Shown here: positions 42,220-58,201 of the stretch, in pieces
Position numbering within the stretch: position 1 is the first letter of the stretch
How the letters are laid out: each line of letters starts with the position of its first letter
Assembly: GCF_007197995.1 (NCBI RefSeq)
Contig: NZ_VKKH01000004.1
Span: 434,001-498,000 of the forward strand
DNA length: 64,000 nt
Reading direction: 5' to 3'
Source: Aliiglaciecola sp. M165
Lineage (GTDB): Bacteria > Pseudomonadota > Gammaproteobacteria > Enterobacterales > Alteromonadaceae
Translations under genes and position numbers: made by a program
The notes under the pieces: generated by a model
Databases searched by the model: none
What the model was told of the DNA's origin: nothing
What the model saw: the letters and a program-made list of their open reading frames with translations, nothing else

Positions 42220-43681
42220 AAAGTCCTTAGCCATAAGTGTATTAATGGCATCTCTGACACTGGCCGGTTGTGCCAACGTTGTTGCTGACTATCAATCGCC
42301 GTTAGAAGCAACGTCGTTGGTGTCAAGCAGTATCACTAAGCACAATGTTGATATAGCCGCACAACAGCTGCAATGGTGGAAAAATTTCGACGATCAGGAT
42401 TTAGATCAGCTAATTGCACTCACGTTGAAGCAGAATCCATCTTTAAAAATAGCCCGTGCTAACGTTGACGCCGCTTATGCCGTGTTTCGCGATACTGACA
42501 ATAACAACAGCATTCAAGGTGACGTTGGTGCGTCTTACACTGCCCAAGATCAGGCTGTACCTGGATTATCTGATCAACGAGTGAATACCCGCACTTACCG
42601 GGCAGGCGCGGATCTTCGCTGGAGTTTGGATTTGTTCAATAAATTGGAGTATGCCGCGCGCGCCGCTAAAGCCAATGCCAAACAACAGGAATACGCCTGG
42701 CAAGAGGTGAAAGTTAACTTAATTGCTCAAACGACGGCTTTATTCGGCGAGCTCAAAGCGTTGCAAGCTCGCACTCTGGTTGCGCAACAAAATGTGCAAA
42801 GTCTGACTAAGACTGAAGCGGTTATTCAAGCTCGGCTCGATGCTGGCTTTTCTTCCGAGCTAGATTTATTGCGTATCCAATCACAGGTAAAAGGGGTAGA
42901 AGCCAGTATTCCAGGATTAAAAGCTCAGCAAGCAAGGGTGACAAATACCCTATTAGCTCTCGCGGGATTGTCGCCAAATGATAGGTCGCTTTCATTGTTT
43001 TCTGATGAAGCCTTCTCGCTAAAAAGCAACATTCGTTCGCTATCCATCAAGCGCCCTATCGCCATTGGTACCAGCCAAGCGTTGCTCAAACGTCGGCCTG
43101 ATGTTTACGCAGCTGAACGTCAACTTGCCGCAGCTAACAGTCAACTTGGTTTTGAAACAGCTAGCTTATATCCGGACATCAGCGTCAGTGGCTTTGTTGG
43201 TTTTTTGTCCGGTGATATCGCAAATTTGGGTAACCAAACCAAAGCTTGGTCAATTGCTCCGAGTATTAGCTGGCCAGCCTTTGATTTAGATTCAGTAGAC
43301 GCCAGAATCGATACTGCTGACGCCAATATCAAAGCCGCTGCAGCGCAATTCGAACGAACCGTATTGGATGCACTTAACGAAGCCCAAACCGCCTTGCAGG
43401 TGTATACCCAAAGTCAAAAGCAGTTAAATTTATTGGAGATGCAAGTCGACGCAAGTGAAAAAGCGCTTAATCTTGCTCAACTTCAATACGATGCAGGCTC
43501 AATTGATTTACTCGTGCTATTAGACGCAGAGCGCTCGGTCTTGGCAGCGAAAGACAATCTAGCCCAAACTCAAGCCATAGTGTTCTCAAACATAATTGAG
43601 ATCTATCGTGCTTTTGGTGGCAACCTGATAAGTCCTGACTCAATTGAAACAGAACGGTCACTTTTGGTGGCTCATTTTTGA
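42209..43681 (+). CDS. RND outer membrane factor lipoprotein (OprN/OprM-like)
   Basis: A 490-residue TolC-type lipoprotein (LTLAGC, Cys21) of the NodT/OprM family, with the two internal OEP repeats: IALTLKQNPSLKIARANVD and LLKRRPDVYAAERQLAAANS near 290-310. The coiled-coil and barrel segments are of normal length. It completes a three-part efflux system with the two upstream genes. The ATG at 42209 follows GAGGAGA; the frame start at 42185 is rejected because it would add a non-signal leader. Confidence 0.92.
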   Translation: MQLKKSLAISVLMASLTLAGCANVVADYQSPLEATSLVSSSITKHNVDIAAQQLQWWKNFDDQDLDQLIALTLKQNPSLKIARANVDAAYAVFRDTDNNNSIQGDVGASYTAQDQAVPGLSDQRVNTRTYRAGADLRWSLDLFNKLEYAARAAKANAKQQEYAWQEVKVNLIAQTTALFGELKALQARTLVAQQNVQSLTKTEAVIQARLDAGFSSELDLLRIQSQVKGVEASIPGLKAQQARVTNTLLALAGLSPNDRSLSLFSDEAFSLKSNIRSLSIKRPIAIGTSQALLKRRPDVYAAERQLAAANSQLGFETASLYPDISVSGFVGFLSGDIANLGNQTKAWSIAPSISWPAFDLDSVDARIDTADANIKAAAAQFERTVLDALNEAQTALQVYTQSQKQLNLLEMQVDASEKALNLAQLQYDAGSIDLLVLLDAERSVLAAKDNLAQTQAIVFSNIIEIYRAFGGNLISPDSIETERSLLVAHF

Positions 43682-43842: not shown

Positions 43843-43890
43843 ATACCAATCCACACAAGGAAGTGATCACTTCTTTATGTGGATTGGTAT
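43843..43890. repeat. 48-bp near-perfect palindrome
   Basis: Outer arms ATACCAATCCACA (43843-43855) and TGTGGATTGGTAT (43878-43890) are exact inverses, and the centre GAAGTGATCACTTC is also self-complementary. Only two of 24 base pairs mismatch. A related fragment is at 4206-4235. It lies at the end of the efflux operon and could act as a terminator in both directions or be a dispersed palindromic element. Confidence 0.75.
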
Positions 43891-43916: not shown

Positions 43917-43973
43917 TTGACAAAGCTGTAGAGCTCGCATAATCTTGTGTCTTATATAAGACCAATATAAGAC
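43917..43973 (+). promoter_or_regulatory. Promoter and GntR operator of the reductase-dioxygenase-exporter operon
   Basis: -35 TTGACA (43917-43922), 15-base spacer, -10 CATAAT (43938-43943), then the perfect 14-bp palindrome GTCTTATATAAGAC (43949-43962) over the expected transcription start. A second half-site TATAAGAC follows at 43966-43973, 11 bases later and on the same DNA face. The same core lies before the TonB receptor (50563-50574) and the GH31 operon (55796-55807). It is a candidate binding site of the GntR protein at 55966. Confidence 0.78.
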
Positions 43974-43980
43974 CCAGACT

Positions 43981-44946
43981 ATGTCCCTGACCCACACCCA
44001 TATGCACAAAGTTGGCTTTGGTTTATGGAAAATTGATCCTAAAGATTGTGCCCAAGTCGTTTATGATGCCATTAAAGCGGGCTACCGCCACTTAGACAGC
44101 GCTTGCGATTACGGAAACGAAAAGCAAGTTGGCGAAGGCATTGCAAGAGCAATTGCTGATGGCTTGGTGACCCGAGAAGAGTTGTGGATCACCTCAAAAC
44201 TTTGGAATACATTCCACGCAAAGGAACACGTTGAACCTGCTTTGCAACGCACCTTGAATGACCTGCAGTTAGACTATTTGGACTTGTATCTTATTCATTT
44301 TCCCATTGCGCAGCCTTATGTGGATTTTGACGTTCGATATCCACCGGAGTGGATTACCGATCCCGACGCCGACACTCCCTGCATGGAACTTGCTCCTGTA
44401 CCACTTTCCGAGACCTGGCAAGCCATGGAAGCATTAGTGAACAAGAGCCTGGTAAAAGAAATTGGGGTGTGTAACTACAACTCTGGATTGTTAAATGACT
44501 TAATGGCTTATTCGACCATTAAACCGAGCAGTTTGCAGATTGAGAGCCACCCTTACTTAACCCAAGAAAGACTTATCCGGTTGGCTAATCACTACAATAT
44601 TCAAGTTACCGCTTTTTCTCCGCTTGGTGCCCTGTCGTATCTTGAACTGGACATGGCCGGTGCCAGCGAATCAGTATTAGAACAACCCGCAGTAAAAGCA
44701 GCGGCAAGTCGGCTCGGTAGAACGCCTGCCCAAGTCGTTTTGCGTTGGGGTGTGCAGCGTGGGACAGCAATCATTCCGAAAACAACAAAAAAAGCGCGCA
44801 TGGCAGAGAACTTGGCACTGTTTGATTTCGAGTTAAACGAAGACGAAATGCAACAAATATCAGCATTAAACAGCAATCGTCGGTTCAATGACCCTGGTGA
44901 TTTCTGCGAGGCTGCGTTTAATACTTTTTATCCTATTTACGATTAA
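43981..44946 (+). CDS. Aldo/keto reductase, candidate 6-oxo-glucose reductase of a sulfoquinovose pathway
   Basis: A 321-residue NAD(P)H-dependent reductase of the xylose-reductase-like AKR2 group. The catalytic tetrad is complete: Asp39, Tyr44 (HLDSACDYGNE), Lys73 (ITSKLWN) and His106 (LIHFPIA). The C-terminal cofactor block is IIPKTTKKARMAEN. By sequence alone it would be named D-xylose reductase. By context (dioxygenase and anion exporter in the same operon, GH31 glycosidase in the same regulon) I infer that it reduces the 6-oxo-glucose left after desulfonation of sulfoquinovose to glucose, as the reductases SmoB/SquG do in known pathways. No xylitol dehydrogenase or xylulokinase is present. 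No ribosome-binding site precedes the ATG, so a leaderless or later start (44002) is possible. Confidence 0.82.
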   Translation: MSLTHTHMHKVGFGLWKIDPKDCAQVVYDAIKAGYRHLDSACDYGNEKQVGEGIARAIADGLVTREELWITSKLWNTFHAKEHVEPALQRTLNDLQLDYLDLYLIHFPIAQPYVDFDVRYPPEWITDPDADTPCMELAPVPLSETWQAMEALVNKSLVKEIGVCNYNSGLLNDLMAYSTIKPSSLQIESHPYLTQERLIRLANHYNIQVTAFSPLGALSYLELDMAGASESVLEQPAVKAAASRLGRTPAQVVLRWGVQRGTAIIPKTTKKARMAENLALFDFELNEDEMQQISALNSNRRFNDPGDFCEAAFNTFYPIYD

Positions 44947-44958
44947 AACGAGGTCACA

Positions 44959-45942
44959 GTGGATCATTTAACCTTTACGCCAGTCGACAAACAAATCCAC
45001 GACGGAAAGCACGTCTTTCCGCAAGTGATCGTAAATGACGGGTCGATTAAGAGCGTTGACGAGTGCAAACAGTGGATTAAAAACAACCTAGCCGATTTAG
45101 AACAAGCACTTGCTGACTCTGGTGCCGTGCTTTTTCGTGGTTTTCCGGTAGATTCTGCTGAATCATTTGACGAATTTAGCAATGCGTTTGATTATCCAAA
45201 TTTTACGTATCAAGAATCACTTTCAAACGCGGTTCGGATCAACTTTACTGAACGTGTGTTCACAGCTAACGAAGCGCCAAAAGATGTAGATATATATCTG
45301 CATCACGAAATGGCCCAAACGCCTATTTCGCCGAGCAAATTGTTTTTCTTCTGCCAATCAGCAGCTGATCAGGGAGGAGCAACGCCGTTGTGTCGATCAG
45401 ACATGTTGTTCGACGAATTGCGTAATCAACAACCTGAATTGGCACAGAATTTCATTAGTAAGGGGTTAAAGTATACAACGCACATGCCTGCCGAAAATGA
45501 TCCCAACTCGGGTCAAGGTCGAAGCTGGAAAAGTACCTTGAGTGTCGACAGTATCGAAGAAGCAGAGGCAAAACTGTCTGATTTGGGGTATACCTGGAAA
45601 TGGTTAGTAGATGGCAGTTTAAAAGCGACCACGCCAGTATTGCCCGCTGTGATCCAAATGGGTGAAGAGCGCCAAGTTTTTTACAATCAACTTATTGCGG
45701 CCTACATGGGATGGAAAGGCGTGAAAGAAGACCCCTCTAGCGCTATTACCTATGGCGACGGCACCCATATACCCGTTGAAGGGTTAGAATTAGCAACAAG
45801 ATTGGCCAACGATTTCACTTTTGATTTGGAATGGCAAGATGGTGATGTCGCCTTGGTTGACAACTATTTGACTATGCACGGCAGAAGGTCATATTCTGGT
45901 GATAGAAAGCGCCAAGTTTTAGTTGCATTGGCGATTGACTAG
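44959..45942 (+). CDS. TauD/TfdA-family dioxygenase, candidate sulfoquinovose dioxygenase
   Basis: A 327-residue Fe(II)/2-oxoglutarate dioxygenase. The iron triad is visible: His115 and Glu117 (IYLHHEMAQT) and His307 (YLTMHGRRSY), with the 2-oxoglutarate-binding Arg just after it. The family includes TauD, which oxygenates taurine next to the sulfonate so that sulfite leaves. Known oxygenolytic sulfoquinovose degraders use a TauD-type enzyme (SqoD) to give sulfite and 6-oxo-glucose; the neighbouring reductase and exporter fit that role. The metal motif HxE, where TauD has HxD, places it in the SyrP/clavaminate-synthase-like branch, so the substrate is not settled by sequence. The GTG start has GAGGT 5 bases upstream. 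Confidence 0.85.
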   Translation: MDHLTFTPVDKQIHDGKHVFPQVIVNDGSIKSVDECKQWIKNNLADLEQALADSGAVLFRGFPVDSAESFDEFSNAFDYPNFTYQESLSNAVRINFTERVFTANEAPKDVDIYLHHEMAQTPISPSKLFFFCQSAADQGGATPLCRSDMLFDELRNQQPELAQNFISKGLKYTTHMPAENDPNSGQGRSWKSTLSVDSIEEAEAKLSDLGYTWKWLVDGSLKATTPVLPAVIQMGEERQVFYNQLIAAYMGWKGVKEDPSSAITYGDGTHIPVEGLELATRLANDFTFDLEWQDGDVALVDNYLTMHGRRSYSGDRKRQVLVALAID

Positions 45943-45983
45943 GTCGATGCGTCATTGCTGTCTAAAACAGGAGTTTGTCTTCA

Positions 45984-46964
45984 TTGAATAAAATCAGGCA
46001 AGCTCTTCCCGGTATTTGGGTAGCCGCGATCGTTGGATTAGCAGCGTTGTTCTTAAGCGAACATTATGGCGCCCCCGCAATGTTATTCGCGTTACTCCTG
46101 GGCATTGCTCTATCTTTTCTTTATGAAGACACCCAATGCAAAGAAGGCATAGAGTTTACCGCATGTCATATTTTGCGCATTGGTGTTGCTTTGCTTGGCC
46201 TGCGCATCGCCTTTGGCGACCTCGCTGCTCTTGGTTGGAAGACTGCAATACTGCTAGTTGTGGCCATAAGCAGCACCATTTTTGTTGGTATTTTATTAGC
46301 CAAAGTCTTTGGGCTTCAAAAGCGATTTGGCGTGCTTACCGGCGGCGCCGTCGGCATTTGTGGTGCATCCGCGGCAATGGCAGTCTCTGCCGTTTTACCC
46401 GACAGCAAAAATAAAGACAGAGATACCCTGCTAACTATCATTGGTGTTACGTCATTATCGACTATAGCCATGGTGCTCTATCCCATCGTTGCTGGTCTAC
46501 TGAATCTGGACGAAACCAGTACCAGCATATTTTTAGGCGGCACCATTCACGATGTTGCTCAGGTAGTCGGCGCAGGATATTCAGTTTCAGAACAAACGGG
46601 AGACTTAGCTACGCTGACCAAACTAGTCAGAGTAGCTTTTCTCATGCCGGTAGTGATTTGCATCTTGTTGGTTTTAAGAATGAACCTTAAACATACTGGA
46701 GATTCTAAACCACCAGGTATTCCTGGGTTTCTCATCGCGTTTGTCATCTTAATGACGGTCAACAGTGTGGTAGATTTGCCCAGCGCCGTCACTCAAGGTG
46801 CTACTGAGATTTCTCGTTTTGCACTGGTCATTTCCATCGCCGCCATTGGTATGAAATCAAACCTGAAACAGCTGCTCACCGTAGGCGCTAAACCAATCAT
46901 CATGCTTGTTGCTGAGACAGCTTGGATTGCAGGGTTAATTTTGCTGGCAATCCCTTACCTTTAA
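45984..46964 (+). CDS. YeiH/UPF0324 family putative sulfite/sulfate exporter
   Basis: A 326-residue membrane protein with about ten segments, belonging to the YeiH (UPF0324) family of putative anion exporters. Family blocks are LRIGVALLGLRIAFGDLAALG, VGICGASAAMAVSAVLPD, and FLGGTIHDVAQVVGAGYSVS. The protein probably exports sulfite or sulfate freed from a sulfonate. It follows the dioxygenase gene by 41 bases, so it belongs to the same operon, which supports a desulfonation pathway. The start is uncertain: TTG at 45984 sits 10 bases after AGGAG, while TTG at 45975 is too close to it. Confidence 0.87.
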   Translation: MNKIRQALPGIWVAAIVGLAALFLSEHYGAPAMLFALLLGIALSFLYEDTQCKEGIEFTACHILRIGVALLGLRIAFGDLAALGWKTAILLVVAISSTIFVGILLAKVFGLQKRFGVLTGGAVGICGASAAMAVSAVLPDSKNKDRDTLLTIIGVTSLSTIAMVLYPIVAGLLNLDETSTSIFLGGTIHDVAQVVGAGYSVSEQTGDLATLTKLVRVAFLMPVVICILLVLRMNLKHTGDSKPPGIPGFLIAFVILMTVNSVVDLPSAVTQGATEISRFALVISIAAIGMKSNLKQLLTVGAKPIIMLVAETAWIAGLILLAIPYL

Positions 46965-47060
46965 ACTTCTCTTTGGATTGCGTTGTATTTGGGGAACCTA
47001 GGCTAACCCCTTGAGAGGATGACGGTTAGGCGTCCTTCACATCATATCAATCTCGATAAC

Positions 47061-47906
47061 TTACTCATTTACGCTACACGCCGCACGAAAAGGAAATGAA
47101 AACCCTCCAGTATGTTCCAACATTGCTTTGTCACGCTGACCTGACTGGATGAAATTCATTAAGTGTTGATTGATGTCTTTCACGTACCGCTGTTTAGTCG
47201 CATTCACCACAAAAACCAAATCGACTTTACTTACAATAGTGGGTGATTGATAGAAGGTGTGGTTGCAATCCAATGTTGAAAGGAATGCTGAACGAGCGTT
47301 ATATTCGTTCATAATCGCAAAGTCGCAACGATTTTTCACCAACATACTAGTCATAGTGGCCTGGCTACTGGAATTCACTCTGATCATAGTTCCCTTTTCG
47401 AAATATTCTTGCAACACGGGATAAGTGTACCCATAACGCGTGCACACCAACGCGTTTTTTAGACTTGCTAACGCGAAATCTGATTTAAATGGTTTTGACG
47501 AATACAGGTAACTTTTGTGCTCAATGAAAGGTTCACTAAACACAAAACCTTCAGGTGAACTTAGCCACGCTTTACTGGAAAGAAATACATCATTTACACC
47601 TGTTCTGGTAAATCGTTCAATCCGCGAACGGCTAGTTTCCAATAGTTCAATTTGGATATTTGACTCATAGGACAGGCTTTTGAAAAAATCCATTACCGCG
47701 CCTTGATAGGTTTGACTGGTTTCATCAAGATAAAGATACGGAGCAGAACCAGGGGCATTAATCGCTAAGGTGAGGGTAATAGGTTTCGACTCCGCCAACG
47801 AATGCTGCGGGATTGCCCAGCAAACAAACATGATGAGAGCGAAAATCCACAAAGCTAATCCCCAAAACAATTCAATGGATACTTTACAACGAAGCTTAGT
47901 AGTCAT
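47061..47906 (-). CDS. Periplasmic amino-acid-type solute-binding protein (SBP family 3)
   Basis: A 281-residue protein with an N-terminal hydrophobic segment (about 13-34) and a two-lobe binding domain of the SBP_bac_3 family: ITLTLAINAPGSAPYLYLDE, YQGAVMDFFKSLSYESNIQ, FSEPFIEHKSYLYSS and the DFAIMNEYNARSAF hinge region. There is no ABC permease nearby. Such orphan proteins in Alteromonadales are often sensors or accessory binding proteins. It is on the same strand as the TonB receptor but separated by a terminator, so it is probably independent. Its relation to the sulfonate locus is unknown. Confidence 0.75.
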   Translation of the reverse strand: MTTKLRCKVSIELFWGLALWIFALIMFVCWAIPQHSLAESKPITLTLAINAPGSAPYLYLDETSQTYQGAVMDFFKSLSYESNIQIELLETSRSRIERFTRTGVNDVFLSSKAWLSSPEGFVFSEPFIEHKSYLYSSKPFKSDFALASLKNALVCTRYGYTYPVLQEYFEKGTMIRVNSSSQATMTSMLVKNRCDFAIMNEYNARSAFLSTLDCNHTFYQSPTIVSKVDLVFVVNATKQRYVKDINQHLMNFIQSGQRDKAMLEHTGGFSFPFRAACSVNE

Positions 47907-47936
47907 TGCCTACTTCATCAACTGTGTAGTAGACAC

Positions 47937-47971
47937 AAAAAAGCGCCCTCATCTATTCCAAGATGGGGCGC
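47937..47971 (-). terminator. Rho-independent terminator of the sulfonate-locus TonB receptor gene
   Basis: On the minus strand GGCGCCCCATC pairs with GATGAGGGCGC (one bulge) and is followed by six T, about 27 bases after the receptor stop. Confidence 0.8.
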
Positions 47972-47997
47972 CAACACACACACGTTTTAAAACTAGA

Positions 47998-50391
47998 TTA
48001 GAAATTCACCCGTAACTGCACACCAAAGTAACGGTCAGCATCACGCGGGATTTGATAACGGAATCCGTCACCGCTATAAGTGGTAACAAAACTCTTATCT
48101 GTCAGGTTTTTACCAATGATTGAAATACGATAGGCGTCATCGTCAAACGAAAAAGCCAGACTTGCATTTACAATTCCATAGCTTGGCAATAACGCTTCTG
48201 GGTTTGTTTGCGCAGTTGCGCCAGGTCCACCAGCAAAGATATCGTCGGTGTAGACGTAAGAGCCATTTAAGATGACATCCATTTCATCCAATTCCCAGAA
48301 ATACTCACCTACCACTGAGTATTTTAGATCAGGTGAAAACGGCAAATCTGCGCCAGAACGTCCGTCACAAGTTTCTAAGCCAACTGGGCAGCGGAATTCA
48401 TCCACTTCAGCATCCACAGACGCTAGACCACCAGATAATGAGAAGTTATCGGTAGCCTGCCATAAGAAATCAACCTCAATACCTTCAGTGATTACCGAAC
48501 CTGCGTTGGTCAATCGGGTGATGAATACACCGTCTAACAATTCAGGATTGTTCGCTTGGAAACCGTCAATTTCGGTGCGGAATAAAGCAACGTTGAATAC
48601 TAAATCACTGCTTGCATACTTGTAGCCAATTTCGTAAGAATCAGAGGTTTCCTCACCAATTGGCAAGGTATCGTTTTGTGCCATGTTGTAGAACACGTTA
48701 AACGCTGGGCCTTTGTAACCTTGCGCATAGGTGAAATACGCCATGCCACTGTCACCAATATCATGTTGTAAGCCAAGCTTAATGGAGAAATTGGATTCTT
48801 CAGTTTCGCCATCGAAGTCAGTATCAAAACTTCTCACGCCCACACCCGTGCGGCTAAATTCATCATTACTGCTGCGATTATGTTTGAAACTTACTTCATC
48901 TTCGGTGAAACGTGCTCCAAATAACGCTCTAAAATCGTCATTGAATTTATATTTACCATCGGCAAATAGTGCAATGTTTTGGAACTCTGTTTCCATAAAT
49001 GCCGTCGCACTGACGATATCGTTTGAATTACAGCTTAAGCCCTCAGCCGCGATAAAGTCGTTGACCTGCTGCTCTGTAGGGCTATCTATGCCAACAACGT
49101 CAGACAAGTATGTGCTGATAGCCGCTGGGAATTGACCATTGTTATTTTGGCAACTGGCATCACGAGTAAAGTTTCGCTCAGATTCTTGTTTCCAGTAGAA
49201 GAATCCAACCTGGTATTCGAGCGCGTTCGCAGTGGAAGACGCTAAACGGAATTCTTGCGAAAAGGTATTCCATTCTTGAGGACCAATATCATGCAATTGG
49301 AAAGGGACGCCAAACACAGGCAATGGCAGATCACCTGCAGTTGAAGTGAAATCCCCTTCACGGAATTCGGTATTTTCCCAATTACGATACGCGGTGATTG
49401 ACGTGAACGTATGATCGTCTAACGACTTGTCTACCTGAATTGAGAATGACGTGGACTCGTCCAAGGTACGGGTTTCAAAATCGTGATCGATTTGACGCTG
49501 TTCCAAATCTAAATCGCCAGTACCCGTGCTATTTGGTGACGCTTCAGATTGATGACGTCCACTGGGCGTTAACTCTAAATCAGCACAACAATCGTCATCT
49601 GATTTTACGTTTTCAAAGATAAATAGAATATCGGTATCGCTAGATGCCTCAACAGCAAGCATTGCGCGCACGCCTTCTTTATCGTAACCACTGGTGGTTT
49701 CGTTATTGAAGACGTTTTCAATATATCCATCAAAGCCAGATTTCAAAACGGTTAGGCTACCGCTGACATTGTCATTTAAAGGACCAGAAACGCTACCTTT
49801 GATGCGATATTCATTGTCTTGGAACATGGTTGCTTCAAAGCTTCCTTCAAAGGCACCTGAAGGCTTTTTAGTGGTGATGTTGACTACACCGGCAGAGGCA
49901 TTTTTACCAAACAATGTGCCTTGAGGACCACGTAACACTTCCACACGCTCTAAATCGTATAGATCGACAAATGCCTGGCCAGAGCGGCCCAGCACAACGC
50001 CATCGACAACGGTAGAAACACTTGGTTCTGCCGCAATACTGAATGAAATAGTACCGATACCACGAATGGTGATTGCCGAGTTACGGGTGGTGTTTCCTTT
50101 TCGGAAACTGACAGAAGGAACAAGGCTTTGTAACCCTTCCAAGTTAGCAGTGAACGCCGAGGCAATTTGATCTTCACGCAGCACTGAAACCGCCACGGGG
50201 ACTTCATTGAGGCTTTCTACACGTTTTTGTGAAGTCACTGTAATCTTCTCAAGAAGGCTTTCACGCTCTTGGGCGCCTTCTTCCTGTGCGTTCACGGCAA
50301 AGCCGGTGAGCATGCATGAACTTAACGCCAATGCGCGCACGACGCTGGAATTGAGTTTTGAGGGTCGGAATGCTTTTTTATTTGCTAACAT
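47998..50391 (-). CDS. TonB-dependent receptor in the sulfonate regulon
   Basis: A 797-residue classical TonB-dependent receptor. A signal peptide (ending GFAVNA near residue 37) precedes a TonB box-like EKITVTSQKR, a plug domain with ITIRGIGTISFSIAAEPSVS and LERVEVLRGPQGTLFGKNASAGVV, and a barrel with C-terminal FGVQLRVNF. The ATG at 50391 has GGAG upstream; the frame start at 50433 is rejected because it would place 14 residues before the signal. The operator core TCTTATATAAGA lies 172 bases upstream, the same word as at the other two operons. It could import sulfoquinovosyl glycerol or sulfolipid head groups; this is inferred from the regulon. Most TonB receptors of this type in Alteromonadales serve carbohydrates or siderophores. 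Confidence 0.9.
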   Translation of the reverse strand: MLANKKAFRPSKLNSSVVRALALSSCMLTGFAVNAQEEGAQERESLLEKITVTSQKRVESLNEVPVAVSVLREDQIASAFTANLEGLQSLVPSVSFRKGNTTRNSAITIRGIGTISFSIAAEPSVSTVVDGVVLGRSGQAFVDLYDLERVEVLRGPQGTLFGKNASAGVVNITTKKPSGAFEGSFEATMFQDNEYRIKGSVSGPLNDNVSGSLTVLKSGFDGYIENVFNNETTSGYDKEGVRAMLAVEASSDTDILFIFENVKSDDDCCADLELTPSGRHQSEASPNSTGTGDLDLEQRQIDHDFETRTLDESTSFSIQVDKSLDDHTFTSITAYRNWENTEFREGDFTSTAGDLPLPVFGVPFQLHDIGPQEWNTFSQEFRLASSTANALEYQVGFFYWKQESERNFTRDASCQNNNGQFPAAISTYLSDVVGIDSPTEQQVNDFIAAEGLSCNSNDIVSATAFMETEFQNIALFADGKYKFNDDFRALFGARFTEDEVSFKHNRSSNDEFSRTGVGVRSFDTDFDGETEESNFSIKLGLQHDIGDSGMAYFTYAQGYKGPAFNVFYNMAQNDTLPIGEETSDSYEIGYKYASSDLVFNVALFRTEIDGFQANNPELLDGVFITRLTNAGSVITEGIEVDFLWQATDNFSLSGGLASVDAEVDEFRCPVGLETCDGRSGADLPFSPDLKYSVVGEYFWELDEMDVILNGSYVYTDDIFAGGPGATAQTNPEALLPSYGIVNASLAFSFDDDAYRISIIGKNLTDKSFVTTYSGDGFRYQIPRDADRYFGVQLRVNF

Positions 50392-50561
50392 TGTGTTCTC
50401 CAAGATGTGTCCTGTTTTTATTCGCGTCGACACTTATCATCTGCTCGCCTGGTCATTGCATCAGGCGGCGCAAACAAGCCTGTGTGTTTCATTACACTGC
50501 TTTACAACATGCTTAGAATTTGTGCCATTAAAACGCCATCTTCTGACATTTTTGTTTTACT

Positions 50562-50575
50562 ATCTTATATAAGAC
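50562..50575 (-). promoter_or_regulatory. GntR operator candidate upstream of the TonB receptor
   Basis: On the minus strand GTCTTATATAAGAT, a 12-bp perfect palindrome core (50563-50574) with one flanking mismatch. Bases before it (TATATCTTCT) align with the -10 region and spacer of the 43938 promoter, so the site again lies just downstream of a possible -10. The rest of the region 50392-50719 holds no gene. Confidence 0.72.
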
Positions 50576-50719
50576 AGAAGATATACTAGAAAACTACCCA
50601 ATTCGTTATGAAGATGCAATCTTTTTGTGAAATTTAAGTTAAAGTTGTGGAGATTAAGATGTCACAGAATGTGACAATAAATACGTGGGCAATCCGTCAA
50701 ATAAACTAAAAAAGTGTGG

Positions 50720-51778
50720 CTAGCGGCAGCTTTGCACGGTTTCATCAAGTGCTTCTAGCCAAGTAGAACCATAATTATCGATAAACCATTGACGCATTTG
50801 CGCCGCTCCGTCGATAAATGCCTGCTTTTCCTCAGGTGTTGGACGATAAACCGTTCCACCGGCTTTCTCAAACAAGGCGTAAGATTCACTTTCGCCATTA
50901 ATGACTTTGTCTCTGGCTGCGATGCGCTGTTTGTCAAACCCTTGCTGAATGATTAACTGGATATCTTCTGGTAATTTTTGCCATTGAGGCTCTGAAAACC
51001 ACCACAAAGCCGCCATGTAAGAATGCCCATCGAGCACGATGTAATTTAAGTGCTCTTCGAGTTTGGCACCAATAATGTCCTGGATACCATTTTTACTGCC
51101 ATCCACTACACCGGTTGCCAACGCTGTGTATAGTTCCGCCCAGGAAACGGGAGTCGGATTCGCGCCCAACTGTTTAACCAGTTCTTGTTGCACCTTTGCT
51201 GGCGTTGTACGGATTTTCACTCCCTGTAAATCGGCAGGTGACCGAATCGGCGTCTCAGTGGTCGCAAAGTTACGCCAACCGCCGGTATTGGTCACTCCCA
51301 TCAACCGCAGTTGCAAGCCGTTTTCTAATACTTGCTCGCGCATTTTATCCATTATGGGACCTTGCATAACACATTCAGCCTGTTCGTCACCACTAAATGC
51401 ATAGGGCAGATCAAGAACCTGCGCCGGGGCGAAAAAGTTGCCTGTGCCACCTGCGGTAGTAGGAAACATCTCCAACACACCTTTTTGTAAATTGCCGATG
51501 CACTCTGGCACATTGCCACAGAACTGACCTGAAGCGAAAAGCTGAACCTGTACTCTACCCTCGCTGTGTTCTTCGACATACTGCTTAAAAGCCAGCAAGC
51601 CGGTGTAATCCTCATCCAACGTTGACGCTTGAATGGCGGCTTTTATGGTGAACTCTGCCTGACTGGATTCAGCTTGATACAAACCGATCCCGCAGCCGAT
51701 CACCACCAAAGCATAAATACTCAGTAAAAGTGTTCGTTTGTTGCTTATTTGCTTTTCACTTATTTGCTTTTGGTTCAT
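50720..51778 (-). CDS. TRAP transporter solute-binding protein DctP
   Basis: A 352-residue periplasmic binding protein of the DctP family. The N-terminal membrane segment (about 16-38) is a signal peptide or anchor; the core has GRVQVQLFASGQFCGNV, VLDLPYAFSGDEQAE, and the diagnostic LQGVKIRTTPAKVQQELVKQ with the conserved Arg that binds carboxylate (or, here possibly, sulfonate) groups. VDGSKNGIQDI follows. It delivers the ligand to the DctQM permease encoded directly upstream. The start is ATG 51778 or 51787; the first is better spaced from AGAAGA. Confidence 0.9.
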   Translation of the reverse strand: MNQKQISEKQISNKRTLLLSIYALVVIGCGIGLYQAESSQAEFTIKAAIQASTLDEDYTGLLAFKQYVEEHSEGRVQVQLFASGQFCGNVPECIGNLQKGVLEMFPTTAGGTGNFFAPAQVLDLPYAFSGDEQAECVMQGPIMDKMREQVLENGLQLRLMGVTNTGGWRNFATTETPIRSPADLQGVKIRTTPAKVQQELVKQLGANPTPVSWAELYTALATGVVDGSKNGIQDIIGAKLEEHLNYIVLDGHSYMAALWWFSEPQWQKLPEDIQLIIQQGFDKQRIAARDKVINGESESYALFEKAGGTVYRPTPEEKQAFIDGAAQMRQWFIDNYGSTWLEALDETVQSCR

Positions 51779-51790
51779 GGATGTCATCTT

Positions 51791-53077
51791 CTAGGCAAAA
51801 CCAAACCAGCGAGGCAAGGTCATTGTCAACGCGGGGAAATAGGTAATGGCGAAGATCACCAGGGCTTCAACCGCCAAAAAAGGCAACATCTCAACCGCTA
51901 TATTTTCAGTTTTTTCGTCTGATACTGAGGCAGCAACAAACAGCACCAAACCCATCGGGGGAGTTGCCAAACCGACGGTAAGATTGACACACATGATCAC
52001 AGCAAAATGCAGTGGATCAATGCCTAGGCTAATAAAAATTGGTGCCAGTACCGGACCTAAAATCAAAATTGCCGGACCTGCATCCAAAAACATACCGATC
52101 ACAAACAAGAACAAGTTAATAATGAGCAACAGCAACAACACGTTTTCCGTGATCCCCACCAACTCGCCTGCAAGCATATCTGCCATACCTGAGACAGTGA
52201 TGATCCAGGCAAAGGTTACCGCTGAACCGACTAACAACAAGATGGTACCCGACTGCACTGCCGCATTGATAAATACTGTTGGCAAGGATTTAGGCGTGAG
52301 GGTTTTGGTAAAATACAGGGTGATCACGAGTGCATAGGCCGCCGCCACCGCCGCCGCTTCTGTGGGGGTAAATACCCCCAACAATATACCACCAAGCAAA
52401 ATAACCGGAGTTAACAAGGGTAAAAATGATGATTTAAAAGCACTGCCACGTTCACCCCAAGTGGCCTTTGCGTTCGCCACAGGATAATTGCGTTTTTTGG
52501 CGATTCGGCTAGTCACCCACATCAAACCTGCACAAATTAACAAGCCGGGAACAATCCCCGCTAAGAACATGCCAGCAACCGAAACATTCATAATAAAGGC
52601 ATACAAAATCATGATCCCCGAAGGCGGGATGATCGGCCCTATCACCGATGAGGCGGCAGTTACCGCTGCGGCAAAACGGCGACTATAGCCATTTTGCTCC
52701 ATTGCTGGAATGAGCATTTTCCCCAAAGCTGACGTATCGGCAACTGCCGACCCCGACAATCCTGCAAAGAGAACTGAAGAAAGAATGTTCACCTGCGCCA
52801 AACCACCTCTAAGATGGCCTATCAAGGTTTGACTAAAATGCACAATCGATCGGGTAATCCCTCCTTGATTCATCAGCTCGCCAGCCAGAATAAAAAAGGG
52901 TACAGCCATTAATGGAAAGGAGTTCATCCCGGAATAAAGACGGTTCAGCAAGGCAGAGAAAAACACTTCATTGCCGTCTATCATTAAACTGACTCCGGGG
53001 CCAATTAGAAGGGCAAAAACCACGGGCGTGCCAGCAGTGAGCAGTAAAATGAAGATCCAAAAATAACTGAGCGACAT
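51791..53077 (-). CDS. TRAP transporter large permease DctM
   Basis: A 428-residue membrane protein with about twelve helices, the large TRAP subunit. Family blocks are AVPFFILAGELMNQGGI, FAGLSGSAVADTSALGKMLIPAM, PIIPPSGIMILYAF and GLATPPMGLVLFVAASVSD. It uses a sodium gradient to import the ligand captured by DctP. The ATG at 53077 lies one base after the dctQ stop; the longer frame to 53119 would overlap dctQ by 41 bases and is less likely. Confidence 0.93.
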   Translation of the reverse strand: MSLSYFWIFILLLTAGTPVVFALLIGPGVSLMIDGNEVFFSALLNRLYSGMNSFPLMAVPFFILAGELMNQGGITRSIVHFSQTLIGHLRGGLAQVNILSSVLFAGLSGSAVADTSALGKMLIPAMEQNGYSRRFAAAVTAASSVIGPIIPPSGIMILYAFIMNVSVAGMFLAGIVPGLLICAGLMWVTSRIAKKRNYPVANAKATWGERGSAFKSSFLPLLTPVILLGGILLGVFTPTEAAAVAAAYALVITLYFTKTLTPKSLPTVFINAAVQSGTILLLVGSAVTFAWIITVSGMADMLAGELVGITENVLLLLLIINLFLFVIGMFLDAGPAILILGPVLAPIFISLGIDPLHFAVIMCVNLTVGLATPPMGLVLFVAASVSDEKTENIAVEMLPFLAVEALVIFAITYFPALTMTLPRWFGFA

Positions 53078-53078
53078 G

Positions 53079-53618
53079 TTAGCTGGCCTCCCGCAATGCA
53101 GTGACAGAGTCTGGGTCAACTATTGAAGCCAATTGCACTAACCCGCGTTCAATCGCGATGAGAAACAAGCCGCCAAAAGCAAAGGGGGCACAACTGTAAA
53201 AATACGCCAATTTGACCGGCACAGAAGACGCATTGATTTGTAATCCACCCACCCAAAAGTCGAGACTTTCTAAGAAGAATATCGCACTGACTAGCGCGAC
53301 TAATATGGTTATCGCCAATTCACTGATTTTACGCAGCATTTGCGGTAAAGCATCAGCGAACATTTCAATGGACACATTGAGGTTTTCCCGATAAGCCCAG
53401 GGGGCGACTAAACACGCGACCCACACCATGGCATACTTAGATAGCTCTTCAGTCCAGGGTAAGGAGTTTTCCAAAATCCGAAAAAGGACTTGGGCCAGAA
53501 TAAAAATAAGCATCATGACCAACAATATTGCTGCCACGTTACGGCCCAACAAAGCGACTTTAACATTGACCAACCCGAGTCCTTTGGCCAGTTTAAGCAG
53601 CATGGCGCTAATGTTCAC
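53079..53618 (-). CDS. TRAP transporter small permease DctQ
   Basis: A 179-residue protein with four membrane helices, the small TRAP subunit. Its core has WTEELSKYAMVWVACLVAPWAYRENLNVSIEMF split over two blocks, the usual signature of DctQ. The GTG at 53618 has GGAA 7 bases upstream. The order GH31-dctQ-dctM-dctP with gaps of 42, 1 and 12 bases indicates one transcript, so the transported substrate is most likely the glycoside or sugar processed by the GH31 enzyme. Confidence 0.88.
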   Translation of the reverse strand: MNISAMLLKLAKGLGLVNVKVALLGRNVAAILLVMMLIFILAQVLFRILENSLPWTEELSKYAMVWVACLVAPWAYRENLNVSIEMFADALPQMLRKISELAITILVALVSAIFFLESLDFWVGGLQINASSVPVKLAYFYSCAPFAFGGLFLIAIERGLVQLASIVDPDSVTALREAS

Positions 53619-53660
53619 AATGACATTCCGGATATTGTTGCAGTCCTTTGGTAAACATGG

Positions 53661-55739
53661 CTAGTTCCCATTTTGTGCGTTTTTATCTTGGTGCGCGTTA
53701 AGCGCAATAAGCTGTTCAGTATGCTCCACTTCTGGCCCTAACGGAATCTCAATGCCATCACAAACAAACACTGCCATTTCATCAATTGCCAAGATCAAGT
53801 TAACCAGTTGACTGCCTTCATATAGCTCATCGGTTAGGAATCGTCGCCATTTGCCTTTAGGCAGATAGACCGACACTTGACCACCGGGAACCAAACAAGG
53901 AGCTACCAGCATGTGTGGTCCAAACATAAACTGATGTTCAAACGACCAGCTCAGTTTGTCGTCTGGAAAAGCGAGAACCATGGCTTTCATAACGGGTAAA
54001 CCGCTGGTGCTGGCTTGCTCCATAGCCGCTTGAAGATAAGGAATGAGCTGATACCGTAGTTTTAACGCCTGAGTGACTGCCTGCTCGGCTTCATCACCAT
54101 AACTCCAGGGCTCTCGCTGACCTATACCGTGTAAACGCATATGCGCGGAGAACACCGCAGCCTGAGACCAACGCACAAATAGCTCTGCGTCGCGAGTGTC
54201 TTTATAAAACCCGCCAACGTCGGTGGCAAAAAACGGTGCACCGGACATACCCCAAGACAACGCCCCTCGAATACTCGCCGCCAGGCCGCCCCAATCTGCC
54301 TGAGGATCACCTCCCCACTGACTGGGGAATCGTTGCGAGCCTGTCCAGGCCGAACGGCTGAACAAAAATGGGCCGTTTTTCGAATATTTTTTTGCCGCCT
54401 CATAGACACATTTGTTGTACAACATACTGTATACATTGTGCAGACGATGGCCAGTGTCACCGCTGTAAGCAAGCATATTATCGTCTTCCACCTGCTCACC
54501 AAAATCGGCTTTAATCATGTCTACGCCGAGATCAAACAAGGGTTTGTGACTTTCCAACCAAAATTCAAACGCGTCGGGATGAGTGAAATCAACGATGCCC
54601 GATTCTGGTAAAGGTGTAAGGACTTCTCCAAAAGCGCTCATATCCCATTGATAACGAAACGCCAAGCCAGTGCGTTTGTCTTTAAGCAACCAGCCTTTTT
54701 GTGCCATTTTCTCAAACAATGGATTGTTCACCGACACCAAGGGGTATTCCCACACACAGACTTTGAAATCTTGCGCCTTGAGTTCGTTTATCACCGCAGC
54801 AGGATCATCATATCGCTTGGGGTCCCACTCAAATGCAAACCGGGTGTCGGTATCCTGCCATGCGCGACCATCCAAGGTGATGACATCGCAAGGCATTTTA
54901 TGCTCGCGCACCGCTTTGGCCGTGGCCAACAGCTCGGGAACATCTTGATAATAGGCTTTGGACAAAATTACCCCTAAGCTCCAAAGTGGAGGTACCGGTG
55001 ATTTCCCTGTCCAGTGAGTGTACTGATCGATCAAGGCGGCGCCGCTGTTACCTGCGTAAAGGATCAGATCCAGCACTTCGTCTTCTACCAATAGGCTATA
55101 GGCCCTTTGCGACCATGCGGGGAAACCGACAGAGTGCGTCACAGGCGCTGGGGTATGCACAAAACATCCCCAACCTAATGGGCTCCAGGCAAATGGCGTA
55201 TTCTTATAAGATACCTCGGCATTGACTCCCAAAGCGTCAAAATTATAAGAGCGTAAAAGTTGGCCACGTTTATTTAGGCCACTCCACTTTTCACCAAGAC
55301 CGTAAACGGGTTCGTCGTGAGCTAAATCCAGGCTAAACAGCCAACCTTTGTCGGTTAGCGCAAAAGGCGGCAAGCGATACTGGCGCACAAAATGTCCGTC
55401 GTTGGGGGTACGTTGCACAACTTTGCCATTTAATGTCAGGCAAAAACTAAAAGGGGCTTTGTTGATTTCAAGATGCAACGAGCCTGCGCTCAAGGAAAGC
55501 GTCTCGGCAGATTGTTCCAGCACACACGCCAGTGGCTCCGGCTGATTCAACAAGATACCGTAATCCGGAGATTGCTGGTCGCCCATGCGAATTCTCATGC
55601 CTCCGTCGATGAGACAGACGTTGAGAAGCCCTTGGCTGGTTTCGACACTAACCTGTGCGCCATCACTCGACGCACTGCCGGTAATGTGAAGCTGTGAAAT
55701 TAAATTCCAATTGGGTGTTGCAAGATCAAGAGACGACAT
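53661..55739 (-). CDS. GH31 glycoside hydrolase, candidate sulfoquinovosidase
   Basis: A 692-residue cytoplasmic GH31 alpha-glycosidase (no signal peptide). The catalytic nucleophile is Asp412 (KADFGEQ) and the acid/base Asp478 (QWGGDPQADW), at almost the same positions as Asp416/Asp482 of YicI and Asp405/Asp472 of YihQ. By eye it mixes YicI-like features (FEWDPKRY, WGGD) with YihQ-like ones (ADFGE, TGSQ, the DxxxDW end of the acid/base loop). Arg300 in TRFAFEW is where YihQ has Arg301, a sulfonate-binding residue; position 303 is Phe where YihQ has Trp304; the Tyr508 position of YihQ appears to be Phe. It could therefore cleave sulfoquinovosides, or be an alpha-xylosidase. Its operon with a TRAP importer and shared operator with a dioxygenase favour the first. 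Confidence 0.85.
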   Translation of the reverse strand: MSSLDLATPNWNLISQLHITGSASSDGAQVSVETSQGLLNVCLIDGGMRIRMGDQQSPDYGILLNQPEPLACVLEQSAETLSLSAGSLHLEINKAPFSFCLTLNGKVVQRTPNDGHFVRQYRLPPFALTDKGWLFSLDLAHDEPVYGLGEKWSGLNKRGQLLRSYNFDALGVNAEVSYKNTPFAWSPLGWGCFVHTPAPVTHSVGFPAWSQRAYSLLVEDEVLDLILYAGNSGAALIDQYTHWTGKSPVPPLWSLGVILSKAYYQDVPELLATAKAVREHKMPCDVITLDGRAWQDTDTRFAFEWDPKRYDDPAAVINELKAQDFKVCVWEYPLVSVNNPLFEKMAQKGWLLKDKRTGLAFRYQWDMSAFGEVLTPLPESGIVDFTHPDAFEFWLESHKPLFDLGVDMIKADFGEQVEDDNMLAYSGDTGHRLHNVYSMLYNKCVYEAAKKYSKNGPFLFSRSAWTGSQRFPSQWGGDPQADWGGLAASIRGALSWGMSGAPFFATDVGGFYKDTRDAELFVRWSQAAVFSAHMRLHGIGQREPWSYGDEAEQAVTQALKLRYQLIPYLQAAMEQASTSGLPVMKAMVLAFPDDKLSWSFEHQFMFGPHMLVAPCLVPGGQVSVYLPKGKWRRFLTDELYEGSQLVNLILAIDEMAVFVCDGIEIPLGPEVEHTEQLIALNAHQDKNAQNGN

Positions 55740-55794
55740 AAATGAGCATTCACATTGGGCGCAATTCAGTTTGCACTCTGATTGCGATACGTTA

Positions 55795-55839
55795 ATCTTA
55801 TATAAGATACAAGTTATAGTAGTGTTAAATTCTTGTCAA
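55795..55839 (-). promoter_or_regulatory. Promoter and GntR operator of the GH31-TRAP operon
   Basis: On the minus strand: -35 TTGACA (55839 to 55834), 15-base spacer, -10 TATAAC (55818 to 55813), TTGT, then the perfect 14-bp palindrome ATCTTATATAAGAT (55808 to 55795) over the expected start of transcription. The same arrangement (TTGACA, 15 bases, an ATAA-type -10, TTGT, operator) is found at 43917-43962, so the two operons have parallel promoters. Confidence 0.78.
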
Positions 55840-55866
55840 CGGACTAAATTTGGTCTTATACGAAAT
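55833..55866 (+). promoter_or_regulatory. Promoter of the GntR gene with degenerate operator
   Basis: -35 TTGTCA (55833-55838), 17-base spacer, -10-like TTATAC (55856-55861). GTCTTATA (55853-55860) is a half copy of the operator found at the structural operons and covers the -10. The TTGTCAA word is also the inverse of the divergent TTGACAA, so the two promoters share their -35 bases and cannot be used at the same time without collision. Confidence 0.5.
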
Positions 55867-55965
55867 TGTGATAATCTCATAATCAGTCGTTCGGTTCACA
55901 ATGTGAAAAAGTGAATACAAACGCGACAACCCATATGGCAGCATGAACTGGTAGTAATAGTAAAC

Positions 55966-56721
55966 ATGAACGAAAACCGATTCGACAATAAACTTAGTGG
56001 CCGCAATCTGGCATTTCAACCACTGTATAAACAAGTGGAAGAACATGTTACTCAGCTAATCGTCGAACAACGTTGGAAGCCAGGTGATGTGTTGCCCAAC
56101 GAGTTTCAGCTCGCCAGCGAATTTGGTGTCAGTCAAGGTACCATGCGAAAGGCGTTGAATGCCTTAACGGATGCTAAAATACTGACCCGCAAACAAGGGG
56201 TGGGAACCTTTGTTTCTGAGCACACAGGCCATAGTAGTCTGTATCGTTTCTTTCCATTAATTGGTGATGGCAAAAAGCCCGAGCTCCCTCACGCACAATT
56301 GGATGATATTCAGGTTATCGATGCCAGTGAAGAAATTAAACAGGCACTTGAACTCTCAGATGAATCACCAAAAAAAGTGATTCAGCTAAAACGGAGAAGG
56401 ATCCTGGACGATGTGTTTTGCATTTTAGAGACAATCTATCTGCCACAAAACTTGTTTTCCGGTATTGAAACCTTGAAGGAAATTCCCCACACCCTTTATC
56501 ATTTTTATCAAACCGACTTCGGTATGACCGTGCACAAAACCAGCGACAGCATCAAAGCTGTGCTCGCCACTGAAGACTGTGCAAAGCGCTTGGATATGAA
56601 AGCCGGCGAGCCGCTGTTACGGGTTACGCGGGTAGCCCACTCACTGGATGGCAAAGCCATGGAGTACAGAGTGAGTCTATGCCGCACTGACAATTATCAC
56701 TATTTGGTTAATCTGGATTAA
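55966..56721 (+). CDS. GntR/HutC-family regulator with UTRA effector domain
   Basis: A 251-residue regulator. The N-terminal winged helix has PLYKQVEEHVTQLIVEQRW, LPNEFQLASEFGVSQGTMRKALNAL and ILTRKQGVGTFV, typical of the HutC subfamily. The C-terminal UTRA domain (about 95-245) has VIQLKRRRILDDVFCILE and LLRVTRVAHSLDGKAMEYRVS, the fold that binds small-molecule inducers such as sugar phosphates. It lies at one end of the sulfonate locus, divergent from the GH31 operon. The probable targets are the TCTTATATAAGA sites at three operons; the half copy at its own promoter suggests autoregulation. Confidence 0.88.
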   Translation: MNENRFDNKLSGRNLAFQPLYKQVEEHVTQLIVEQRWKPGDVLPNEFQLASEFGVSQGTMRKALNALTDAKILTRKQGVGTFVSEHTGHSSLYRFFPLIGDGKKPELPHAQLDDIQVIDASEEIKQALELSDESPKKVIQLKRRRILDDVFCILETIYLPQNLFSGIETLKEIPHTLYHFYQTDFGMTVHKTSDSIKAVLATEDCAKRLDMKAGEPLLRVTRVAHSLDGKAMEYRVSLCRTDNYHYLVNLD

Positions 56722-57049: not shown

Positions 57050-58201
57050 ATGCCATTACTAGTGTTAACAAAATCTCTAATAATCACTTTTTGTCTTGCC
57101 ATCACCCTGCCTTTTTGCACAAACGCCAAAGAAAACACCGAACATCAAAAACTCGACAGCCTATTTTCCAATGCGGTTAAAAGCCCAACCGTGCCTGGTA
57201 TCAATGTCGCCATCGCAGACTCGTCAGGCGTAGTTTGGGCGAAAGGATATGGTATTGCAGATATTGAAAATAATGTAGCCATGACCGCAAAACACAAAAT
57301 GCGTATTGGCAGCGTAGCAAAACTCATCACCGTTGCAGGCATGATGCGTCAGGTCGAGCAAGGCGAACTCGATTTAGATGCTCCGGTAAAACGCTATGTG
57401 TCTAGCTGGCCCGAGCTGATGCCTACGATTACCCTGAGGCAGTTGGCGTCTCATAGTTCAGGCATTCGTCACTACAATAGCCAAGAAGAGTTTCTATTGA
57501 ACGAAAACTATGACTCTGTGGTCGATAGCCTGGAACTGTTTAAACACGATCCTTTACTGTTTGCACCAGGCACAGAATACAAATATTCAACCTTCGCTTT
57601 TTCGTTAATAGCCGCTGCAATGGAAGGTGCTTCAAGTGGTAAGTCGTTTAAGCAAATAATCACTGCTCAGGTATTGGAACCACTGAATCTCGACGACACC
57701 GTTTTTGATGATCAGGCAGACATTATTCCACTAAGGCAGCGTCCTTATCATGTAAAAGATGGCAAACTGATTAACGCACCACAATCGGACCATTCATACA
57801 AATACGCCGGAGGCGGTTTTTTGGCAACGCCGTCAGATATATCTCAATTTGCCGTCGCCCATACCCAGCCAGGCTTTCTAGCTGAGCAAACCCGCAAAGA
57901 AATGCTCAGTCGCGCAACACTTACTGATGGCACTGACCTGCCCTATGGAATTGGCTGGATGATAGATTTTGACAACTTTATCAACCGCAGCTATTACGTA
58001 AACAACCCCAAAGCCCAAGAACTGATGGCCAGCTTTGACAACGCGGTCATGCATTCAGGTGGCAGTAATGGCGGCACCACCATGATGATATTGTGCCGCG
58101 ACCACAACCGTGCCATCACAGTGGTCAAAAATGTCGATGGTGAATATAGTGCAGATGTGGTGTTATTGGCGTTGGAAGGGTTGAGGTTTTATCATATGTG
58201 A
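57050..58201 (+). CDS. LACTB-like serine hydrolase (beta-lactamase class C fold)
   Basis: A 383-residue exported protein with a signal peptide (about 1-27, cleaved near FCTNA-K). The serine-hydrolase triad is Ser-X-X-Lys in RIGSVAKLITVAGM, Tyr in YKYSTFAFSLIAAA (YST form, as in LACTB, where class C enzymes have YSN), and HSGGSNGG replacing KTG near the C-terminus. Such proteins act as D-aminopeptidases, esterases or peptidases rather than as resistance enzymes. No linked partner is seen. Confidence 0.87.
   Translation: MPLLVLTKSLIITFCLAITLPFCTNAKENTEHQKLDSLFSNAVKSPTVPGINVAIADSSGVVWAKGYGIADIENNVAMTAKHKMRIGSVAKLITVAGMMRQVEQGELDLDAPVKRYVSSWPELMPTITLRQLASHSSGIRHYNSQEEFLLNENYDSVVDSLELFKHDPLLFAPGTEYKYSTFAFSLIAAAMEGASSGKSFKQIITAQVLEPLNLDDTVFDDQADIIPLRQRPYHVKDGKLINAPQSDHSYKYAGGGFLATPSDISQFAVAHTQPGFLAEQTRKEMLSRATLTDGTDLPYGIGWMIDFDNFINRSYYVNNPKAQELMASFDNAVMHSGGSNGGTTMMILCRDHNRAITVVKNVDGEYSADVVLLALEGLRFYHM

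Follow-up and report, generated by a model that had tools for sequence, protein, structure and literature searches.

A candidate oxygenolytic sulfoquinovose utilisation locus in Aliiglaciecola sp. M165 with a putative third lineage of sulfoquinovosidase

Introduction

Oxygenolytic use of sulfoquinovose, a sulfosugar of plants and algae, has been described in more than one form. In the sulfo-ASDO/sulfo-SDO pathway of Marinobacterium aestuarii (Ye et al. 2023, iScience), with SqoD and SquF, an Fe/2-oxoglutarate dioxygenase and an NAD(P)H oxidoreductase yield sulfite and glucose, and in the SMO pathway the products of the flavin monooxygenase SmoC are sulfite and 6-oxo-glucose, according to the account in PMC12890257. 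Here we describe a set of genes in Aliiglaciecola sp. M165 (Alteromonadaceae; assembly GCF_007197995.1, contig NZ_VKKH01000004.1) which, judged from sequence, very probably serves the use of sulfoquinovose by the dioxygenase (sulfo-SDO/sulfo-ASDO) route and is under local control. It lies in a stretch of 64,000 nucleotides (forward-strand positions 434,001 to 498,000 of the contig), which we call the window, and it combines an aldo/keto reductase (AKR), a dioxygenase and a putative anion exporter with a GH31 glycosidase, a TRAP importer, a TonB-dependent receptor and a GntR/UTRA regulator.

The release of sulfoquinovose from its glycosides has also been studied. The NAD-dependent sulfoquinovosidases (SQases) solved as 8QC2 and 8QC3, the spacing of the Arg, Leu and Lys sulfonate ligands of the GH188 enzyme SqgA, and the occurrence of SqgA in sulfo-SDO clusters are given in PMC10755693, and the account in PMC12890257 credits GH188 work to Ma 2025. 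The presence of the sulfo-ASDO/SDO pathway in Alteromonadaceae is already in print (PMC13372026). The pathway type is known, and it is the glycosidase that is the testable novelty; no description of its GH31 clade, or of TonB/TRAP uptake for this pathway, was found in the literature searched, which did not extend to Ye 2023 and Ma 2025.

Set beside M. aestuarii, also a member of the Gammaproteobacteria, the window locus has the same proposed dioxygenase and oxidoreductase chemistry (SqoD being compared by description only), but it differs in having TonB and TRAP uptake and a GH31 enzyme that is not of the YihQ kind. SMO loci use ABC transporters; the products proposed for the window locus are the same as those of the SMO pathway, but its ten proteins include neither a flavin monooxygenase nor an ABC permease or ATPase domain. 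An SMO pathway at the locus was rejected for want of any flavin enzyme domain in these ten proteins, the rest of the genome lying outside that search.

Results

The dioxygenase of the window was followed across other genomes, labelled here by G (genomes) and L (loci) numbers. Twenty-eight loci carry a dioxygenase at least 48% identical to it (48–100%), made up of 13 loci, 14 further genomes and the window, where the first two sets may overlap, and in 28 of 28 an AKR of the window's type adjoins the dioxygenase gene. This count leaves out G350 (37%) and G563 (33%), whose AKR-family neighbours are unlike the window's AKR, and it also omits seven relatives in which the dioxygenase match does not exceed 32%. 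Twelve of the 13 loci belong to Glaciecola, Paraglaciecola, Alteromonas or an Alteromonadaceae bacterium and one to a Spongiibacteraceae bin; a plasmid search with the dioxygenase returned no match at 1e-40.

Elsewhere the same pair of genes is joined to recognised SQases. The AKR and dioxygenase of G629 (L078), 74% and 56% identical to those of the window, are clustered with TRAP genes and with a GH31 enzyme 54% identical to Escherichia coli YihQ, which keeps both catalytic Asp residues together with Q262, Q288, R301, W304 and Y508 (QQRWY), the set that we take to bind sulfoquinovose in YihQ. In G315, G775 and G497 (loci L050, L080 and L081) the pair stands behind SqgA, a non-homologous, NAD-dependent GH188 enzyme that fills the slot held in the window by the GH31 protein. 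Matches of the L050 SqgA to the solved SQases 8qc3 and 8qc2 are at about 1e-96. All four SqgA proteins checked (L050, L080, L081 and L082) keep the R-x3-L-x-K sulfonate loop. Since the AKR-dioxygenase pair is linked to YihQ and SqgA in these genomes, sulfoquinovose is most likely the substrate of the pathway. A dioxygenase pathway had been proposed in a preliminary description of the window, and this linkage supports the proposal, as does the test of sulfite handling, in that genes for a SorA/SorB-like sulfite dehydrogenase and TauE are added in several relatives.

A further combination is found at L082:9475-16795 (G563), where SqgA and TRAP genes accompany a different AKR and a remote dioxygenase (33%) without the R146 and Q244 of the main clade; this dioxygenase perhaps represents a second sulfoquinovose dioxygenase lineage, grouping with that of L051.

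The metal triad of the window's dioxygenase (H115, E117 and H307) aligns with H99, D101 and H255 of TauD. The TauD residues H70 and R270, presumably its sulfonate ligands, align with Y79 and A323, and TauD-type taurine use was rejected because these two positions are not kept. Matches to PDB sequences were confined to At3g21360 and the 9yut series, and a fold search with the AlphaFold model (mean pLDDT 75.7) gave At3g21360 as the sole close fold. The 9yut series comprises five entries of a TauD/TfdA-like protein, which scores 213 bits to the dioxygenase. For the AKR, the closest solved chains are aldose/xylose reductases.

The GH31 glycosidase had been taken for an enzyme of YihQ's kind, which was not borne out. 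A profile search and a tree against YihQ and YicI, set beforehand as the test of that assignment, place it in a separate clade beside YicI with most of the YihQ motif lost. It scores 430.8 bits with PRK10658 (alpha-xylosidase) and 215 with PRK10426, which we take to be the model for YihQ, both below cut-off. In the tree of 26 proteins, some rows of which are long-branched, a clade of 14 was recovered at 100/100 nearer to YicI-type enzymes than to YihQ; it consists of the window's GH31, 12 relatives and a protein of Deinococcus peraridilitoris, and the tree also holds 12 comparators. The nearest solved structures by sequence are those of YicI (E. coli b3656), to which the window's enzyme is 32–33% identical, against 26–28% for YihQ (E. 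coli b3878). Even so, 36 clade-invariant positions differ from all three YicI-type enzymes compared.

With YihQ the enzyme shares the family, the catalytic pair of Asp residues (D412/D478, aligning with YihQ D405/D472) and Gln288-Asp289, which is present as Q295-D296 in the 13 marine clade members and replaced by Leu-Glu in the Deinococcus member. The YihQ residues Q262, Q288, R301, W304 and Y508 align with I258, Q295, D298, F301 and F511, so that only Q288 is kept and no Arg is aligned at R301, a position where the alignment is unsure and the region differs by 10 residues in length. The clade has two arginines of its own instead. In 14 of 14 rows the loop at YicI Cys307-Phe308 reads Gly-Arg-Ala (G291-R292-A293, with R292 inserted), and R300, at the position of YicI Trp315, is equally invariant; R292 is found in none of the 12 comparators and R300 in one distant comparator (L098). 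Both arginines would be well placed for a sulfonate, because C307, F308 and W315 of YicI shape the −1 site where C6 would lie. The AlphaFold model of the GH31 protein has a mean pLDDT of 53.9, too low for arginine geometry. No export signal was recognisable by eye, no predictor having been run.

The D. peraridilitoris member of the clade (43–44% identical) is encoded on plasmid pDEIPE01, in a cluster (L104:1349-13012) with a divergent SSADH-type dehydrogenase, ABC importer genes, and an aldolase and a PfkB kinase that share 29% and 31.5% identity with YihT and YihV, respectively. The cluster also encodes an isomerase, whose only NCBIfam match is to the sulfoquinovose isomerase SftI (139 bits, cut-off 700) and for which no Pfam or PDB match was found. 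Taken together, the cluster could fit sulfoglycolysis, without proving it. A YicI-like GH31 (33–35%) was also seen on a plasmid of Haloarcula sp. GH36 (L105:1-10112), no more than 8 kb from a gene annotated as a putative sulfate exporter.

The glycosidase is exchanged around a constant AKR-dioxygenase core. Fifteen genomes with a close dioxygenase, that of M165 included, hold the window-type GH31 (nine), YihQ (one), SqgA (three) or none of these (two, G652 and G004, the latter 59% complete and with a contig that ends at DctQ). No two of the three kinds occurred together in any of the 18 genomes searched, and a search of the M165 genome for SqgA found none at E 1e-30. Across 369 genomes of the class, the window-type GH31 is found in six and the close dioxygenase in six, with both in five (hypergeometric P 6e-10, uncorrected for kinship, with three of the five shared genomes from one genus and G350, at 37%, not counted as having the dioxygenase). 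The genomic context and the active-site changes favour a sulfoquinovoside over a xyloside as the substrate of the GH31 enzyme. The clade probably represents a third lineage of SQases, distinct from those already known, because it is separate in the tree, carries the two arginines, occurs with YihQ or SqgA in none of the genomes searched and has a member in the possible sulfoglycolysis cluster of Deinococcus.

The three transcription units of the locus share a palindrome, TCTTATATAAGA, which occurs at exactly three places in the whole 4.6-Mb genome, starting at 43950, 50563 and 55796 of the window and so all at the locus (Table 1). A reversed-pattern control had zero matches genome-wide, and with up to one mismatch the chance level in the window is a mean of 0.21, three matches being reached in 1 of 100 shuffles. 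Beside the operator before the AKR gene, ATATAAGACC repeats at 43965-43974. An operator with at most one mismatch precedes the AKR gene in 22 of the 23 loci of the window's type that were checked, a set in which the window and the short L014 are counted, the sole exception being L013 with a best match of five mismatches. In the congener G002 the AKR-dioxygenase-YeiH operon and the GH31-TRAP-TonB set are on different contigs (L053 and L068) and the operator is on both. Matches are poorer in the TauE-GntR gap of L008 and L077 (three mismatches at best) and before the GH31 gene of L009 (four). The loci with other glycosidases or none (L050 and L078-L082) had no exact TCTTATATAAGA and best matches of three to five mismatches in the 300 bases checked. 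The GntR gene, which in many relatives adjoins the GH31, TauE or AKR gene, encodes the protein that we infer to bind this operator.

Uptake genes follow the glycosidase in two forms. TRAP genes accompany the GH31 gene in the window, in the Glaciecola and Paraglaciecola loci, and in L013, G002, G012 and G065; they are also present in G004, where the GH31 gene itself is beyond the contig end. In their place, Alteromonas, the f167 genomes and the congener G006 have a sodium:solute symporter. The TonB receptor was found with both forms in many relatives and not in L013. The second-best PDB match of DctP is the isethionate-binding DctP 8t9t (E 2.2e-37), a hint that it may bind a sulfonate. The set of G065, TonB-GH31-DctQMP of the same clade, is at L067:6177-13829 in a genome of 1.7 Mb.

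A YeiH gene stands beside the dioxygenase gene in 20 of the 28 loci. It is followed by a SorA-like sulfite dehydrogenase in all seven Alteromonas loci (L006-L012) and then by a SorB-like cytochrome in six, L012 ending there; the same arrangement is seen in L056, in L077 and in L052, which belongs to G004, the congener with the most similar dioxygenase. TauE/SafE lies between the GH31 and GntR genes in L008-L012, L056 and L077, and there is one in L079.

The positions of the parts are given in Table 1. Open reading frame and Pfam scans agree with the preliminary description as to gene families and gene order (the AKR/dioxygenase/YeiH operon, GH31-DctQMP, the TonB receptor and GntR/UTRA). The catalytic residues that it claimed are present (dioxygenase H115-x-E117...H307; GH31 D412/D478), and the shared operators are real. 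Its suggestion of TonB and TRAP uptake is in keeping with the operator that both units share with the AKR operon.

Table 1 Features of the candidate sulfoquinovose utilisation locus (window positions)
Feature	Position	Strand	Evidence
Aldo/keto reductase (AKR), proposed 6-oxo-glucose (6-dehydroglucose) reductase	43981-44946	+	Pfam PF00248
TauD-family Fe(II)/2-oxoglutarate dioxygenase, proposed sulfoquinovose dioxygenase (SqoD-like)	44959-45942	+	Pfam PF02668, 105 bits
YeiH-type (Cons_hypoth698) membrane protein, proposed sulfite/anion exporter	45975-46964	+	Pfam PF03601, 223 bits
TonB-dependent receptor, proposed outer-membrane uptake of sulfoquinovose or sulfoquinovosyl glycerol	47998-50433	-	Pfam Plug + barrel; own operator
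TRAP substrate-binding protein DctP	50720-51787	-	PF03480, 208.8 bits
TRAP large permease DctM	51791-53119	-	PF06808, 376 bits
TRAP small permease DctQ	53079-53618	-	PF04290, 80.6 bits
GH31 glycosidase, proposed sulfoquinovosidase	53661-55739	-	PF01055, 292 bits
GntR/UTRA regulator, proposed local repressor of three units	55966-56721	+	PF00392 + PF07702
Operator TCTTATATAAGA before AKR-dioxygenase-YeiH operon	43950-43961	.	Sequence match
Operator TCTTATATAAGA before TonB receptor	50563-50574	.	Sequence match
Operator TCTTATATAAGA in divergent GH31/GntR intergenic region	55796-55807	.	Sequence match

The AKR, dioxygenase and YeiH genes form one plus-strand operon, with a gap of 12 bases between the first two. 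On the minus strand the order is GH31, DctQ, DctM and DctP, with DctQ overlapping DctM, which places all three TRAP subunits in one operon, and the GntR/UTRA gene is divergent from GH31. One more gene, on the minus strand at 47061-47906, resembles SBP_bac_3 weakly (20.3 bits, below the Pfam cut-off of 26.4); it was rejected as a member of the system because no copy was found in the screened neighbourhoods outside its own genome.

Directly upstream of the locus are genes for an RND efflux pump (AcrB-type) and an outer membrane efflux protein (39025-43681). The gap that separates the efflux protein gene from the AKR operon holds an inverted repeat at 43843-43890, with 24-nt arms that are 92% complementary and no loop, which is perhaps a terminator; its first 13 bases have no further exact copy in the window. 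Downstream, after the GntR gene, there is a beta-lactamase-fold (PF00144) protein at 57050-58201. Another PF00144 protein sits between GntR and AKR in L002, and L004 has one that is 95% identical.

Discussion

Given the conserved AKR-dioxygenase pair, its recognised SQase partners and the single-locus operator, we infer the following scheme, including its substrate, each of its reactions, the way in which transport runs and the match of regulator to operator. The TonB receptor would take sulfoquinovosyl glycerol and/or sulfoquinovose across the outer membrane and DctPQM would carry the substrate into the cytoplasm, where the GH31 enzyme would hydrolyse the alpha-sulfoquinovoside. The Fe(II)/2-oxoglutarate dioxygenase would then hydroxylate C6 to give sulfite and 6-oxo-glucose, the AKR would reduce 6-oxo-glucose to glucose, and the YeiH-type protein would export sulfite (or sulfate). 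The GntR/UTRA protein, bound at TGTCTTATATAAGACA-like operators, is predicted to repress the three promoters, with relief when it binds a sugar ligand. We further consider it likely that the GH31 enzyme is a third SQase, evolved independently from the YicI side, whose C6-sulfonate pocket would have arisen through the insertion of R292 and the change of Trp315 to R300, and which would serve both marine oxygenolytic and Deinococcus sulfoglycolytic pathways and swap with YihQ and SqgA around one AKR-dioxygenase core.

Several observations weigh against a sulfoquinovose locus with such an SQase. The best curated model for the GH31 protein is that of an alpha-xylosidase (431 bits, cut-off 606), and the protein has no equivalents of YihQ W304 and Y508. 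The dioxygenase model is of low confidence over residues 82-123, a stretch that takes in the metal site. None of the three SQase types was found in G652, which has the AKR, the dioxygenase and TRAP genes; conversely, no close dioxygenase was found in G065, which has the GH31-TRAP-TonB set and a one-mismatch operator and may process the same sugar further by another route. The 21 kb of L013 are without the operator, GntR, YeiH and a TonB receptor of the window's type. On the side of sulfite, YeiH is not beside the dioxygenase in eight of the 28 loci (L013, L047, L050, L078-L081, and L014, which ends there), and the window's YeiH protein passes the wider PF03601 but scores 154.6 bits against the cut-off of 232.6 for NCBIfam TIGR00698. 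The two SorA proteins scanned reach 240–243 bits against an NCBIfam cut-off of 600, and SorB is likewise below cut-off. No SorA-like gene was found in the window's genome, or in the others, by a 1e-20 search of nine genomes, which had no positive control and is weak, and the SorA model matched the window's genome only in part, at 39 bits; because no such gene was found, sulfite would presumably be exported by the YeiH-type protein in this host.

These observations bear on three other explanations. It is unlikely, in our judgement, that a free sulfoquinovose pathway stands and that the GH31 enzyme is a YicI-type alpha-xylosidase or alpha-glucosidase acting on another glycoside and merely co-regulated. 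The top score with PRK10658, the YicI structures and the position of the clade beside YicI all fit such an enzyme, and an ordinary hexose route is possible in Deinococcus, because the isomerase there carries the annotation L-fucose isomerase and the aldolase, at 258 bits, exceeds the cut-off of 184 for a tagatose 1,6-diphosphate aldolase model. However, this explanation sits poorly with the Gly-Arg-Ala and its inserted Arg that replace YicI Cys307-Phe308 in all 14 members, with a clade that never shares a genome with YihQ or SqgA among those searched, and with an isomerase whose sole NCBIfam match is the sulfoquinovose isomerase.

The glycoside could instead carry another C6-sulfonated hexose, such as sulfofucose (galacto) or another epimer, handled by the same oxygenolytic chemistry. 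Bacterial catabolism of rare sulfofucose is reported (PMC12421959) and the GH31 pocket is unlike that of YihQ, but the close identity of the AKR and dioxygenase to a pair clustered with a complete-motif YihQ, and the linkage of such pairs to SqgA, make this quite improbable. A non-sulfonate substrate for the dioxygenase, as in oxidative demethylation or dehalogenation of a sugar, with YeiH exporting another anion, would suit the distance of the enzyme from TauD (Y79 and A323 for H70 and R270) and its few PDB relatives, but is highly improbable given that recognised SQases, sulfite dehydrogenase and TauE are found alongside this pair of genes. A sulfoquinovose locus of the dioxygenase type accounts best for these neighbours.

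If the GH31 clade is a sulfoquinovosidase, surveys keyed to the known SQases would miss glycoside use in these Alteromonadaceae, and the gene would receive an alpha-xylosidase annotation in such surveys. With its single-locus operator the system would be cleanly inducible and suited to tests of how sulfoquinovosyl glycerol crosses the outer membrane, and the clade would, if this is true, represent convergent sulfonate recognition inside one glycosidase family.

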